From NCBI GenBank assembly GCA_005792635.1, contig SXRF01000062.1:1-39563 (forward strand): DNA of 39,563 bases, in the 5' to 3' direction. The notes under the pieces are model-generated. The model had not been told where the DNA came from and ran no database searches. It saw only the letters and a list, made by a program, of their open reading frames with translations. Source of the stretch: Rickettsiales bacterium. Its GTDB lineage: Bacteria > Pseudomonadota > Alphaproteobacteria > Rickettsiales > SXRF01. Shown piece after piece: positions 1,156 to 8,866 of this stretch. The position numbers and the translations under genes are program-made. Numbering within the stretch: the stretch's first letter is position 1; every line of letters starts with the position of its first letter.

Positions 1156-1186
1156 GATATTTTCTCCTGATAGTGATGGATTATAA

Positions 1187-1258
1187 GATGACGAGATTAC
1201 TAGATGACAAGAATTAAAATAAGCAACTCATCTCGTCATCCAGATTCCAGTCATCTAG
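1187..1258. repeat. Interleaved inverted repeats upstream of the thiolase gene
   Basis: Two perfect inverted repeats interleave here. GATGACGAGA at 1187-1196 pairs with 1231-1240, and CTAGATGAC at 1200-1208 pairs with 1250-1258. The order is A-B-A'-B', so both pairs cannot form a simple nested stem at once. The GATGAC/GTCATC word recurs four times. It could be a degenerate palindromic element or regulatory DNA. I see no ORF in it. Confidence 0.6.
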
Positions 1259-1380
1259 ATTATACTGCAACCTATGTAGGTAAGAGATTTACAAATGTCT
1301 AGTGCAATATACAAAAAATATCAAGGAAATCTGCGGGGTTTTTGCTGCATCGCACAATTATAAGCCATTTTGATACATGT

Positions 1381-1483
1381 ATAGCTGATTAAGCATATAA
1401 TTGCTTAATCAGCTATGAAAATCGCAAGCCGAAAGCGCGATTTTCCGCGCCGTAGGCAGCGTCAAAATGCTGAAGGCATTTTG
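1381..1483. repeat. Three consecutive hairpins at the left side of the putative origin
   Basis: Three stem-loops follow one another with almost no spacing between the first two. The first has perfect 15-bp arms at 1381-1395 and 1402-1416 with a TATAAT loop. The second has 9-bp arms, GAAAATCGC at 1417-1425 and its complement at 1437-1445. The third has 8-bp arms, CAAAATGC at 1463-1470 and its complement at 1476-1483, with a 5-base loop. None is followed by a long T run on the plus strand, so ordinary intrinsic termination is not the obvious role. They could be REP-like sequences, protein-binding sites at the origin, or a structured transcript. Confidence 0.7.
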
Positions 1484-1863
1484 TTAGTTAACTATAAAAA
1501 ATTACAACTGCTGTACCAATGCTATAGCTGAATAATTCTGTGGATAAGTTCGGTAATAAAAATGTTGAAATTGTTAGTAAAACGGTGAGGGCATTTTATC
1601 CAGATTTATGGCGGTTAAATGTTCGTATTTATACACAGGTGGAAAAGTTTTTTTATGCTGTCTTAAAAATCTGGATAAAATTTTTTATACTCATCTTTCA
1701 AATAGTAAAATTATACATATATAACAAATTGATATAAAAAATATTACAAAAAATACCCACAATTGCTTGTAAAAATATTTTTGGTGGATAATGTTGTGAA
1801 GAAAAAATAATCCCCGATAAACCGCGCATAACTATTACTACCACCTTTAAGTATATATATTTT
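1484..1863. other. Putative chromosomal replication origin (oriC) beside hemE
   Basis: This AT-rich noncoding stretch contains sites resembling the DnaA box TTATNCACA. Perfect matches are at 1539-1547 (reverse orientation, TGTGGATAA) and 1629-1637 (TTATACACA). One-mismatch sites are at 1596-1604, 1670-1678 (reverse) and 1783-1791 (reverse), with weaker ones at 1685-1693 and 1711-1719. Bases about 1640-1780 are extremely A/T rich and could act as the unwinding element. In Caulobacter, Rickettsia and rhizobia the mapped or predicted origin lies beside hemE, which begins at 1864 here. The flanking genes read outward on both sides. The hemE promoter must also lie here. A 65-codon frame at 1540-1737 is not credible as a gene. 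The origin call is an inference from position and motifs. Confidence 0.72.
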
Positions 1864-2907
1864 ATGAATTATAGTAGTAATATTTTTCTTTCCTTATTTG
1901 AGAATAAAAAGTCAGAGAAAGTTCCCTTTTGGTTTATGAGGCAAGCAGGGAGGTATCTTCCTGAATATCGTGCTGTTCGTAAGAATTTCTCTAATTTTCT
2001 AGAATTTTGCTATACACCAGAAGCGGCTTGTGAGGTGACTTTACAGCCGATAGATAGATTTGGCATGAGTGCGGCGATTATATTTTCTGATATATTGGTT
2101 ATTCCTGATGCGCTTGGTGTTGATGTGAAATTTTCGGAAGGTCATGGGCCGATTTTACAGCCAGTAACTGAACTTGCAAATCTTTCAAAAAATAATTTAT
2201 CAAATAATTTCTGGGAGAAACTTGCGCCAGTTTATGAAGCGATAAAGCTGACTAGAAAGTCGCTGGCGGATGATAAGGTCTTAATCGGGTTTTGCGGGCT
2301 TCCGTGGACGCTTGCTTGTTATATGGTGGAGGGTAAGGGAAGTCGTGACTTCGCGTCTGTACGGATAGTTGCTGCGCGAAGAAAAGAGTTTTTTTCTGGC
2401 TTGATTGAAATACTGACTGATGCAGTCATAAAACATTCATTGGCGCAAATTGAATCTGGTGCAAATGCAATACAATTATTTGACTCATGGGCAGGAGTTT
2501 TAAGCGAACAGGAATTTTACGATTATTCTATAATTCCCAGCCAAAAAATAACGGCGGCAATAAAAGAAAAATATCCGCAGATTCCTGTTATTGGTTTTCC
2601 GAGATTGGCGGGCAGCAAAATGGAGCAGTACGCAAAACTAACTGGTGTGGATGCGGTTAGTTTTGATGGATCGGTTAGCCTTGATTTTGCCAGCAGTAAT
2701 GTCTTAAAACACGCTATTTTACAGGGAAATTTGGATAATATTCTTCTCGCAGAAGATAGGCAAGAAGCTGTAAAACAAACGCAAAAAATACTTGGGTCTT
2801 TTGTGGGCAAACCATTTATATTTAACCTTGCTCATGGCATATTGCCACATACGCCAATTGAAAATGTTTATGCCATATGTGATGAGATTATGGCATATTA
2901 TAAGTAA
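1864..2907 (+). CDS. hemE: Uroporphyrinogen decarboxylase
   Basis: It decarboxylates the four acetate side chains of uroporphyrinogen III to give coproporphyrinogen III in cytosolic heme synthesis. At 347 residues it is full length. The N-terminal signature PFWFMRQAGRYLPEYR (near residues 21-36) holds the conserved arginines that bind substrate carboxylates. The internal GFCGLPWTLACYMVEG block and the C-terminal FNLAHGILPHTP motif are also family hallmarks. No strong Shine-Dalgarno is seen before ATG 1864, but the signature needs this N-terminus. The gene lies immediately right of the putative origin, as in many alphaproteobacteria. It is separated from hemH by a toxin-antitoxin module, where many relatives have the two heme genes close together. 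Confidence 0.97.
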   Translation: MNYSSNIFLSLFENKKSEKVPFWFMRQAGRYLPEYRAVRKNFSNFLEFCYTPEAACEVTLQPIDRFGMSAAIIFSDILVIPDALGVDVKFSEGHGPILQPVTELANLSKNNLSNNFWEKLAPVYEAIKLTRKSLADDKVLIGFCGLPWTLACYMVEGKGSRDFASVRIVAARRKEFFSGLIEILTDAVIKHSLAQIESGANAIQLFDSWAGVLSEQEFYDYSIIPSQKITAAIKEKYPQIPVIGFPRLAGSKMEQYAKLTGVDAVSFDGSVSLDFASSNVLKHAILQGNLDNILLAEDRQEAVKQTQKILGSFVGKPFIFNLAHGILPHTPIENVYAICDEIMAYYK

Positions 2908-2956: not shown

Positions 2957-2978
2957 ATGGAGATTATGGAGGTTGGTT

Positions 2979-3224
2979 ATGATACAAACAGGAAAAATTG
3001 ATGGTAGTGGAAGGATAATTATACCTGCTGCAATCCGTAATGAAATGAAATTAGATGCTGGAGATAGAGTATTATTTTCTTGTGAAAATGGAGAATTGAG
3101 GATTTTTAATTCAGAAGATTTTATAGAAAAAATCCGCGAAAAGGCAGTTAAGCTTAAAGGTAAAGGTCAAAATATGACTGATGAGTTTATTAAGTGGCGC
3201 AAAAAAGATAGCGGAGATTTATGA
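2979..3224 (+). CDS. vapB: VapB-type antitoxin, AbrB/SpoVT fold
   Basis: This is an 81-residue antitoxin of the AbrB-like (swapped-hairpin) type. It would bind DNA with its N-terminal half and neutralise the VapC partner with its C-terminal tail. The diagnostic stretch KIDGSGRIIIPAAIRNEM is at the N-terminus, and the C-terminal half is charged and helical. The ATG at 2979 is preferred over the in-frame TTG at 2973, because GGAGG at 2968-2972 sits six bases before it. The stop overlaps the next gene's start by four bases (ATGA), so the pair is translationally coupled. The operator-like inverted repeat just upstream supports autoregulation. The pair is inserted between hemE and hemH, about 1 kb from the putative origin. 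Confidence 0.9.
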   Translation: MIQTGKIDGSGRIIIPAAIRNEMKLDAGDRVLFSCENGELRIFNSEDFIEKIREKAVKLKGKGQNMTDEFIKWRKKDSGDL

Positions 3225-3604
3225 GTAATGTTGTTTTAGATACATCGGTTATGGTTGCCTATGTCTATAAAGAAAAAGGTGGAGATGGTGCTAAAAATTA
3301 CCTATATGACGCAGTAATATCTACAGTTATTTATAGCGAATTTTTGTATGTTATGATTGACAAGGGTTTTACTCTTGATGAGTTAGAAAAATTCATAAAT
3401 TATTTCGGAATAGAAATAATAGATTTTGACGAGCAGCAAGCTCTCATAGCCGCTGAACTGGCTCAAAAAACCAAATCCAAAGGTTTATCATTTGGTGATA
3501 GGGCATGTTTGGCACTTGCAATTTACAAAAAAATTCCTGTTGTTACTGCCGATAAAATCTGGTCAAAGTTGGATATTGGTGTTAACATAAAACTTATCAG
3601 ATAA
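3221..3604 (+). CDS. vapC: VapC-type toxin, PIN-domain ribonuclease
   Basis: This is a 127-residue PIN-domain toxin, expected to be a Mg-dependent endoribonuclease held in check by the upstream VapB. The four acidic positions typical of active PIN domains are present: Asp7 in VVLDTSV, Glu40 in IYSEFL, Asp93 in FGDRACLALA and Asp111 in VVTADK. The toxin therefore looks catalytically intact. It overlaps vapB by four bases and ends 10 bases before hemH. The hemH start may thus depend on read-through from this module, and loss of the module could affect hemH expression. The RNA target cannot be read from the sequence. Confidence 0.93.
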   Translation: MSNVVLDTSVMVAYVYKEKGGDGAKNYLYDAVISTVIYSEFLYVMIDKGFTLDELEKFINYFGIEIIDFDEQQALIAAELAQKTKSKGLSFGDRACLALAIYKKIPVVTADKIWSKLDIGVNIKLIR

Positions 3605-6862: not shown

Positions 6863-7510
6863 ATGCCGCAATTATCGTTCTCCTTCGCCCTTCCCACGAT
6901 TTTTTCAGCAGATAATTTTTTTATCTCTGATTGCAACCGCGTTGCTTATCAAACGGTTATGAAACCAGAAAATTGGCAGAGTCACGCGCTATATTTATAC
7001 GGTGAAAAAGGTTCGGGGAAAAGCCATTTGGCGAATATTTGGGCGCGGGAAAACGCCGCCGAAATAATTTCCAAAAGCGACATAAAACCAGAAGCCATAA
7101 ATAAAAACTGTGTGATGGAAGATGTTGAAACTTGCAGCGATGAAGCCGCGCTTTTCCACCTGTTTAACCACTGCAAAGACATTGGTGTCAAACTGCTGCT
7201 TACTTCATCTTACGAGCCTTCTGCTTTGCCTTTCAAGCTGCCTGACCTCACCTCGCGCCTGCGCTCTTGCGCTCTTGCTAGTATCAATCCGCCTGATGAC
7301 AGATTGCTCGCGCTTGTGATGCGGAAGCAATTTTCTGATAAGCAATTATTGGTTGATGATGAGGTGGTGGATTATTTAACGCCGCGCATTGAGCGCAGCT
7401 TCGCCAGCATAAAAAATCTGGTGGAAAAAATAGATACACACGCACTCGCCGAGCGCAAAAATATTTCTATACCGTTTGTGCGGAAGCTTTTAGAAAGCCA
7501 GCAATCGTAG
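6863..7510 (+). CDS. hdaA: DnaA-related regulator Hda (HdaA)
   Basis: Hda proteins bind the DNA polymerase sliding clamp and stimulate ATP hydrolysis by DnaA (regulatory inactivation of DnaA), preventing re-initiation at oriC. This 215-residue protein begins PQLSFSF, which fits the N-terminal clamp-binding motif QL(S/D)LF. It has a Walker A, GEKGSGKS, at residues 47-54, and a Walker B-like VMEDVE instead of a DD/DE pair. Sensor-type arginines lie near LTSRLRS. It is shorter than DnaA and lacks the helix-turn-helix DNA-binding domain. It lies about 5 kb from the putative origin and follows the permease gene by two bases. Its last 44 bases overlap the 3' end of the convergent hydrolase gene. 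Confidence 0.92.
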   Translation: MPQLSFSFALPTIFSADNFFISDCNRVAYQTVMKPENWQSHALYLYGEKGSGKSHLANIWARENAAEIISKSDIKPEAINKNCVMEDVETCSDEAALFHLFNHCKDIGVKLLLTSSYEPSALPFKLPDLTSRLRSCALASINPPDDRLLALVMRKQFSDKQLLVDDEVVDYLTPRIERSFASIKNLVEKIDTHALAERKNISIPFVRKLLESQQS

Positions 7511-8345
7511 TAATTTGAGCGTCGTCCATAAGTGCGGGTGCATGACCAACATCTGGCACAGTAAGCAGTTGTAAATTCGGGTGAGTTTCCTGCATTTTTT
7601 TTGCTACGCCCGCTGGCAGAATATCCGATTTATCACCGCGAATAAGCAGCGTTGGAATTTTTTTTACCATTTCCCAGAGCGACCATAAATCAATGTCTTT
7701 AACATCATCGTTTTTTACAAAACCCTGTGCAATTGCTGGGTCATAAGCAAGGCGGAAACAGCAATCGCCAGTCTCTTCAATGCTGTGAACAAATAAATTT
7801 TGCCAGTGTTCTTCTGCCTGAATTCCATAAGCCGCACAGCGCGAACAAAGGGCAGCTTCCGCCTCGGCGCGAGTTTTGAAATTATTGGTACTCACATATT
7901 CAGCAATGCGTTTAAGCCCCGCCGCAGGGACTAAGCAACCAATATCGTTGATGGTTAGAGTTTTAAGGAATTGTGGAAAAGAATTGGCGACCATCATGCC
8001 GATAATTCCGCCCATGGAAGTGCCGATCCAGTGAGTTTTTATTAGTTTTAGTTGGGTAAAAATATGGGCAATATCCGCAACATAATCAACATAGTTGTAA
8101 TGCGCGTGGTCGGTGTGCCACTGGCTTTTTCCGCGCCCTACCATGTCCACTGCAATAACACGGTAGCTATCGCATAGCGAACTTGCCAGCACATCAAAAT
8201 CCCGCCCATTACGGGTTAAGCCATGCACACAAAAAACCGTCTCCTCTGCATTCGCATTTCCCCATTCATGAACCGCAATTTTATGTGTCCCATCTGCATT
8301 CAAAATGGGAATATCCAGAAAATAAGTTTGTGGCACGATAAGCAT
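7467..8345 (-). CDS. Alpha/beta-hydrolase fold protein
   Basis: This is a 292-residue cytosolic serine hydrolase of the alpha/beta fold. The oxyanion-loop motif VHGLTRNGRDF is at residues 40-51. The nucleophile elbow GTSMGG places the catalytic serine at residue 110. A likely acid is Asp241 in GDKSDIL, and the histidine is His268 in VGHAP. The triad appears complete. The substrate is not evident; esterase, lipase or C-C hydrolase activity are all possible. Its ATG overlaps the TAA of the upstream hypothetical gene (TAATG), so the two are coupled. Its 3' end overlaps that of hda by 44 bases. Confidence 0.9.
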   Translation of the reverse strand: MLIVPQTYFLDIPILNADGTHKIAVHEWGNANAEETVFCVHGLTRNGRDFDVLASSLCDSYRVIAVDMVGRGKSQWHTDHAHYNYVDYVADIAHIFTQLKLIKTHWIGTSMGGIIGMMVANSFPQFLKTLTINDIGCLVPAAGLKRIAEYVSTNNFKTRAEAEAALCSRCAAYGIQAEEHWQNLFVHSIEETGDCCFRLAYDPAIAQGFVKNDDVKDIDLWSLWEMVKKIPTLLIRGDKSDILPAGVAKKMQETHPNLQLLTVPDVGHAPALMDDAQITTIAGFLKASAQTV

Positions 8346-8866
8346 TAAGCACTATTTCCCGTCATTTCTTTTTCTAAATTACCCAAAAATCTTTCAAGGG
8401 CGGATATTTGCGTTTGCCAATTCCCAATTTGCCAAGACTGTGCGTATTTCATATTATCTTTTGCAGAATCAATCGCCACTTTGATTTTTTGTATATATTC
8501 TGAATCACTAGGAGTTGTATATACAATATCAGGTGCAGAAGCATCCATTTTATCAAGGTTTGACGGCGGATGGAATTGTATCATTAAGGTGAGAACATCT
8601 CCAAAGTCCATATCTTTTGTCGTGTCGTTCCAAGCTTTTTTCAAATTTTCTGATGCATCAGGAGGTGGAAAAGATGGTGATTTTGTATTTTCCTGCGGAG
8701 CGGCAATTTTTGCCGAAGAAGTATTATCTATTGGAGATTTTTTGGTTGTGTCTGGCTCTGCTACGAGCAAGGTAGCAAAAGATGGTGATATATCTTTGTC
8801 TTTCGTTGCGCCGTGAAACGCTGATGCAGAAATGAAACCAGCACTCGAACTAACAGACAAAGACAT
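8345..8866 (-). CDS. Hypothetical protein, Ser/Pro-rich N-terminal half
   Basis: I do not recognise this 173-residue protein. Its first half is rich in Ser, Ala, Pro and Lys and looks disordered (for example SPSFPPPDASENLKK). The second half is more ordered and ends in a probable amphipathic helix (QISALERFLGNLEKEM). There is no signal peptide or membrane segment. The second in-frame ATG (8864-8866) is preferred over the one at 8876-8878, because GGAG at 8873-8876 sits six bases before it. The frame is translationally coupled to the downstream hydrolase through TAATG, which supports its being real. A role with the hydrolase or at a surface structure cannot be decided. Confidence 0.7.
   Translation of the reverse strand: MSLSVSSSAGFISASAFHGATKDKDISPSFATLLVAEPDTTKKSPIDNTSSAKIAAPQENTKSPSFPPPDASENLKKAWNDTTKDMDFGDVLTLMIQFHPPSNLDKMDASAPDIVYTTPSDSEYIQKIKVAIDSAKDNMKYAQSWQIGNWQTQISALERFLGNLEKEMTGNSA

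Follow-up and report, generated by a model that had tools for sequence, protein, structure and literature searches.

The window analyzed here, 39,563 bp of DNA from an uncultured alphaproteobacterium, begins within a thiolase gene that is cut by the contig end. Between the start of this gene (position 1155) and that of hemE (1864) lies a noncoding gap of 708 bp (1156–1863), the length given in a preliminary description of this DNA, which had also placed a putative chromosomal origin of replication here. The gap directly adjoins hemE on one side and holds a cluster of DnaA boxes in A/T-rich DNA, both of which are membership features of the hemE-type alphaproteobacterial oriC; the individual elements are collected in the table. 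The nearest named records are two metagenome assemblies, KLAP23 and KLAP47, with hemE identities of 74 and 72%, respectively. No RNA family reached its gathering score in the window, and a plasmid origin was rejected, the gap having no match in a plasmid collection of 72,556 records. Beyond hemE, a pair encoding a MazE-type antitoxin and a PIN-domain protein (2973–3604) lies between hemE and hemH, two genes that are adjacent in three congeners. Further on, 5 kb from the putative origin, positions 6863–7510 encode an Hda-like protein comprising an Hda lid and a DnaA ATPase domain, which is likely a regulator of DnaA.

Table. Elements of the putative origin region and its flanks, in window coordinates.
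Feature	Position	Strand	Remarks
Thiolase gene	1–1155	−	Cut by contig end; new left neighbor of the origin
Second dispersed repeat	~1178–1261		Between thiolase gene and origin; partial copies (74–96%) on other contigs
Dispersed 116-bp palindromic repeat	1381–1496		Outside the origin; 97% copy at C88:2085–2200 (L046)
DnaA box TTATCCACA	1539–1547	−	Left-hand anchor; aligns across the 14 origins, substituted in some
Left arm of perfect 15-bp inverted pair	1593–1607	+	Carries box TTATCCAGA (1596–1604, +)
DnaA box TTATACACA	1629–1637	+	90 bp from left anchor
Right arm of perfect 15-bp inverted pair	1667–1681	−	Carries box TTATCCAGA (1670–1678, −)
A/T-rich stretch	1677–1776		80–90% A+T in 40-bp steps
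IHF consensus WATCAANNNNTTR	1722–1734	−	Exact match; weak evidence
DnaA box TTATCCACC	1783–1791	−	Upstream box of the proposed unwinding module
Degenerate DnaA box TAATCCCCG	1808–1816	+	Three mismatches; alone near chance level
Three DnaA-trio-like triplets	1832–1840	−	CTA TTA CTA on + (3′-GAT AAT GAT-5′ on −)
A/T tract	1846–1863		17 of 18 A/T; triplets to hemE start codon; proposed first-melting DNA
hemE, uroporphyrinogen decarboxylase	1864–2907	+	PF01208

Two dispersed repeats occupy the thiolase side of the gap. The 116-bp element starts with a perfect 15-bp inverted repeat and folds into several hairpins at −48.4 kcal/mol, against −26.4 kcal/mol for shuffled sequences; as a dispersed repeat of this kind, it was rejected as origin DNA. 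A partial copy (85%) is also present in the congener G013 (L073 1205–1251). Homology to the congeners becomes evident in the alignment from about position 1530, and the left limit of the origin, previously set at 1381, is placed there instead.

The DnaA boxes were largely as first described. All five boxes, the three with one mismatch (1596–1604, 1670–1678, and 1783–1791) included, lie at the reported places; the count of two perfect boxes holds for TTATNCACA and fails for TTATCCACA, which is matched perfectly at 1539–1547 only. The 15-bp inverted pair flanks the middle box (1629–1637) on both sides; inspection of the alignment by eye revealed no such pair in the relatives. Box-like words are in excess throughout the genome, where TTWTNCACA occurs 291 times versus 105 for the reversed control, and the window contains 28 words within one mismatch versus 8.3 in shuffles. 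Single boxes therefore mean little, and it is the cluster that constitutes the evidence: five of the 28 words fall within 244 bp, an event seen in 0.07% of random trials (0.0007) under uniform placement. The densest 360 bp contain five words at this origin and nine at the G013 origin, with at most three elsewhere in each of 23 other stretches of 7–20 kb (three from the window's genome and 20 from G013). The genome-wide excess of box-like words would also suit a DnaA-binding regulatory site that is not the chromosomal origin; set against the synteny, the conserved layout, and the skew switch in relatives described below, this reading is very improbable indeed.

The A/T-dominated stretch noted earlier around 1640–1780 is real, with 70–90% A+T in 40-bp steps over 1637–1776 and a peak of 90% at 1717–1756. 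It contains an exact match to WATCAANNNNTTR, which we take to be the IHF consensus; the same site also fits WATCAN5WTR as printed in the available text of PMC1914354. Besides the window, an exact match occurs only in G013, and 11 of the 13 relatives have one-mismatch matches or none. Scans of the origin region for CtrA and GANTC sites returned nothing firm: there is no exact CtrA site (TTAA-N7-TTAA) in the region, and one with a single mismatch lies at 1652–1666. The sections of PMC1914354 at hand give zero to seven CtrA sites among Rickettsiales.

Fourteen origins, that of the window and those of 13 relatives, could be aligned. The left (−) and middle (+) boxes are separated by 79–80 bp in 10 of the 13 relatives and by 90 bp in the window; the additional 10 bp correspond to about one helical turn, so that the two boxes would still face the same side of the helix. 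At that stringency the pair is absent from G005, G002, and G004. G005 does have a pair at 90 bp, formed by other boxes and not treated as an equivalent spacing; G013 and G010 have further box pairs within the spacing range. Searched genome-wide, the pattern of two outer boxes with 60–90 bp between them occurs at one place in the window's genome, with none for the reversed control. It matches nine of 16 family genomes and is missing from seven; one further place away from hemE was found in each of G013 and G005, and in G006, an incomplete genome without a hemE hit, the pattern lies at a place unconnected with hemE.

Gene order provides a second line of evidence. The genes hemE and PF03618 (RP001/COG1806-type) were each found in 14 of the 16 family genomes, the window's own genome included. 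In all 13 relatives that have both, the two genes are divergent neighbors 302–1058 bp apart, with the alignable region between them. In the window's genome, PF03618 is not opposite hemE but on contig C123, where it begins 2 bp past the stop codon of the preceding gene, with about 31 kb to the contig end on that side; this bears out the rearranged left flank that had been suspected. The preceding gene presumably belongs to the DUF2336 family. In G013 and G014, this gene and a paralogue share the orientation of PF03618 and are found some 42 kb away from the origin, on the same side of it as PF03618; the gene behind them there is a different one, which we take to encode NAD kinase. In G015, the gene pair is not on the contig of hemE. 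Because the gene pair of C123 is about 42 kb from the origin in G013 and G014, it is PF03618 that moved in the window's genome, most simply by relocation along its own arm. PF03618 moved off, and the origin remained with hemE.

In each of the 12 relatives that yielded both genes, the thiolase orthologue and hemE are on separate contigs, and in three congeners the orthologue adjoins what is presumably a reductase-like gene. The thiolase–origin join could represent a mis-assembly, since it falls at the 116-bp repeat, which has its 97% copy on C88; such an error would concern the flank only. We consider it unlikely: PF03618 is separated independently by its position on C123, none of the 10 places matching the repeats of the gap is on that contig, and the gene coming right after hemH in three congeners is found 22 kb further on in the window, so that the region is rearranged anyway. 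In G013, an extra 171-aa reading frame (L047 9851–10366) lies between PF03618 and the origin, and this edge therefore varies there too.

The window's own genome is in 128 draft contigs, which leaves its skew minimum out of reach; GC skew was therefore followed in relatives. In G013 (contig C5), skew was negative in 10 of 13 samples to the left of the origin and positive in eight of nine to the right. In G010 (contig C13), all seven readable left samples were negative and all 11 right samples positive, three wholly masked samples being left out. A similar switch is present in G021, which belongs to another family of the order and has a 1.85-Mb contig (nine of 11 left samples negative, eight of nine right samples positive). 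Over at most 20 kb, five of eight further relatives change sign, and G011, G003, and G009 do not. Within the window, where the DNA left of the origin amounts to 1.5 kb, mostly one gene, skew was −0.074 over 1–1380 and +0.063 over the 10 kb from hemE. C123 gave negative values (−0.12 and −0.09), in keeping with the left arm provided that PF03618 has retained its orientation away from the origin.

Alongside the box cluster and a recurrent box–triplet module described below, the synteny in 13 of 13 relatives, the box layout in 10 of 13, and the skew switch in three relatives with long contigs support the placement of the origin beside hemE. Thus, on sequence evidence, we propose that the segment from about 1530 to 1863 is very probably the chromosomal origin, of hemE type, of this uncultured alphaproteobacterium. 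The origin of an uncultured lineage is located in this way, which also shows that a hemE-type origin can stay intact beside hemE after the loss of its usual left gene.

The locus fits a hemE-type origin except for the moved neighbor gene. Like the hemE/COG1806-type origins of Caulobacter (Cori) and Rickettsia, as treated in the available sections of PMC1914354, it has hemE on one side, a DnaA-box cluster, A/T-rich DNA, and an IHF-consensus match, and some of its relatives display the skew switch; unlike them, it has neither a COG1806-type (PF03618) gene opposite nor an exact CtrA site. Boundary genes are an origin criterion in those sections, which also include a predicted Wolbachia origin with hemE beside a CBS-domain gene (PMC1914354). 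The window resembles that prediction in keeping hemE while the other boundary gene has changed, and differs from it in that a thiolase gene is the new neighbor, separated from the origin by two dispersed repeats. Since the same source predicts an origin with a changed boundary in Wolbachia, the missing PF03618 boundary lowers, but does not bar, the filing of the window as hemE-type.

Toward hemE, the elements follow one another in the order box 1783–1791, 16 bp, TAATCCCCG (1808–1816), 14 bp, the ACN run ACTATTACTACCACC (1831–1845), and the A/T tract. The triplets at 1832–1840 fall inside the ACN run and provide at least three of the form 3′-NAN-5′, the BUS criterion, which is loose in A/T-rich DNA. 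The region within 110 bp of hemE was compared across several sets: a family set (the window plus 13 relatives); an order set, consisting of 14 of the 21 best-scoring non-family loci among 82 non-family genomes with hemE; a set of 20 named records with PF03618 upstream, in one case 4.7 kb away; and a control set of 50 hemE loci from other or unassigned bacteria, out of 51 of which one was too short. The remaining seven of the 21 order loci had no PF03618 in the retrieved DNA, and one of these was too short to test. At least three of four triplets were ACN in 13 of 14 family loci (mean in shuffles, 0.97), eight of 14 order loci (0.64), 12 of 20 named records (1.70), and none of the 50 control loci (0.97), a comparison that is not blind because the patterns were chosen after the family and distant origins had been viewed. 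Among loci without PF03618, the run was present in one of six from the order and in four of seven from Acetobacter and Commensalibacter. Three exact ACN triplets were found in 10/14 family, 4/14 order, 11/20 named, and 0/50 control loci, and, without PF03618, in 1/6 and 0/7 loci, respectively. The simpler word CTAYYA separates the sets less well, with 14/14, 9/14, 10/20, and 3/50 occurrences (shuffle means 3.80, 2.68, 1.91, and 2.58) and, without PF03618, 3/6 and 0/7 (1.03 and 0.46).

DnaA boxes accompany the run. A minus-strand box with up to two mismatches, 16–60 bp before the run, is present in 11 of 13 family, five of eight order, and 10 of 12 named loci, where 0.88, 0.85, and 0.42, respectively, are expected after shuffling; in nine of the 13 run-bearing family origins, the distance from the end of the minus box to the run is 36–40 bp. 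Outside the family, a forward box with up to two mismatches occurs in three of eight order and 11 of 12 named loci (expected, 0.43 and 0.48), and at L185, L188, L201, L107, L111, L118, and L125 it has 0–1 mismatch and lies 2–15 bp from the run. Within the family, such a forward box occurs in three of 13 origins, barely above chance (shuffle mean 0.85, largest 5), and the best forward word, with 2–4 mismatches, lies 11–15 bp before the run in 10 of 13. With words so degenerate and so little above shuffles, the forward box of the family has either decayed or was never there; its putative homology is based on the alignment.

Lying no more than 40 bp from the hemE start codon, the ACN run and A/T tract might instead form a hemE promoter or leader element unrelated to replication. 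That the run is absent upstream of all 50 hemE genes of other bacteria, and that DnaA-box-like words stand before it much more often than shuffling would produce, leaves this explanation decidedly unlikely. An element common only to alphaproteobacterial hemE genes might also account for the conserved run.

The triplets invite comparison with the DnaA-trio, whose consensus and motif definition are given in PMC8287927 and PMC10721633. According to the available text of the latter, the central A of Bacillus trios can be replaced by cytosine, while activity is reduced by G and T. In the runs of all sets taken together, the base following AC on the plus strand is T in 49 cases, C in 38, and A in 26, and a central A on the opposite strand is thus present in fewer than half; for part of the set, this speaks against a strict trio interpretation. 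The first three triplets of the window itself fit the trio form. As described in the accessible part of PMC8287927, the BUS box rule allows two mismatches for a sole 9-bp box and three in a further case, with a limit of 16 bp between box and triplets; the nearest box in the window (1808–1816) is 15 bp off and has three mismatches. The window therefore resembles BUS, as a likeness of sequence, in its box, 15-bp spacer, three central-A triplets, and A/T-rich DNA, and departs from it in the three mismatches of the adjoining box and, over the runs of all sets, in the scarcity of the central A. Helical phasing of a distal box is also reported for BUS in the portion of PMC6669920 at hand. No trio at a hemE-type origin was found in the available portions of the DnaA-trio and hemE-origin literature (PMC8287927, PMC6669920, PMC10225481, PMC10797057, PMC10721633, PMC10671737). 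In the tree figure of PMC8287927, Proteobacteria are shown by class; because the paper's supplementary table may list such origins, we make no claim to a first report.

By analogy with these systems, the origin probably opens at 1783–1863, with its DnaA box and three DnaA-trio-like triplets followed by an A/T tract, rather than in the A/T stretch at 1640–1780. Were the origin to open in 1677–1776, its most A/T-rich part (up to 90%), the triplets near hemE would be incidental. Yet this stretch is poorly conserved in the alignment and largely gapped in G007, G008, and G004, whereas the triplet block is well kept within the family and the box–triplet module recurs in part of the distant origins; opening there thus seems rather improbable. 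For opening beside hemE, we envisage that DnaA would bind the outer boxes at 1539 and 1629 and the weaker boxes at 1596 and 1670, and that IHF might bend the DNA at 1722–1734. A DnaA filament would then be guided to the lower-strand triplets at 1832–1840 by the box at 1783, with possible help from the degenerate box at 1808. By likeness to BUS as presented in the available text of PMC8287927 and PMC6669920, the filament on the triplets would open the A/T tract at the hemE start, where the helicase would be loaded; the order of these events is likewise conjectural.

More tentatively, hemE-type alphaproteobacterial origins may share an ancestral unwinding module abutting hemE, composed of a DnaA box, a forward box that has decayed in the family, an ACN run with a relaxed center, and an A/T tract. 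Opening would then start no more than about 30 bp from the hemE start codon and not in the longer A/T-rich stretch, and the outer boxes would act via a loop that may tolerate a length change of one helical turn (80 to 90 bp). We regard this generalization as possible, although somewhat short of probable. The box–triplet module offers a short target for studying how hemE-type origins open.

Some further observations concern hemE and dnaA. In three genomes of the order (G099, G112, and G110), the hemE matches contain internal stop codons, which may reflect gene decay. A PF08299 search was empty for the window's genome. That the genome is dnaA-less was nevertheless rejected: the full-length DnaA of a congener matches, over residues 1–266, at the very end of contig C110, and dnaA is therefore cut by the contig end. 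On C110, dnaA (2–805) lies about 6.7 kb from, and in the opposite direction to, a gene at 7468–8580 that we take to be dnaN; in G013, dnaA is intact and dnaN follows it directly.
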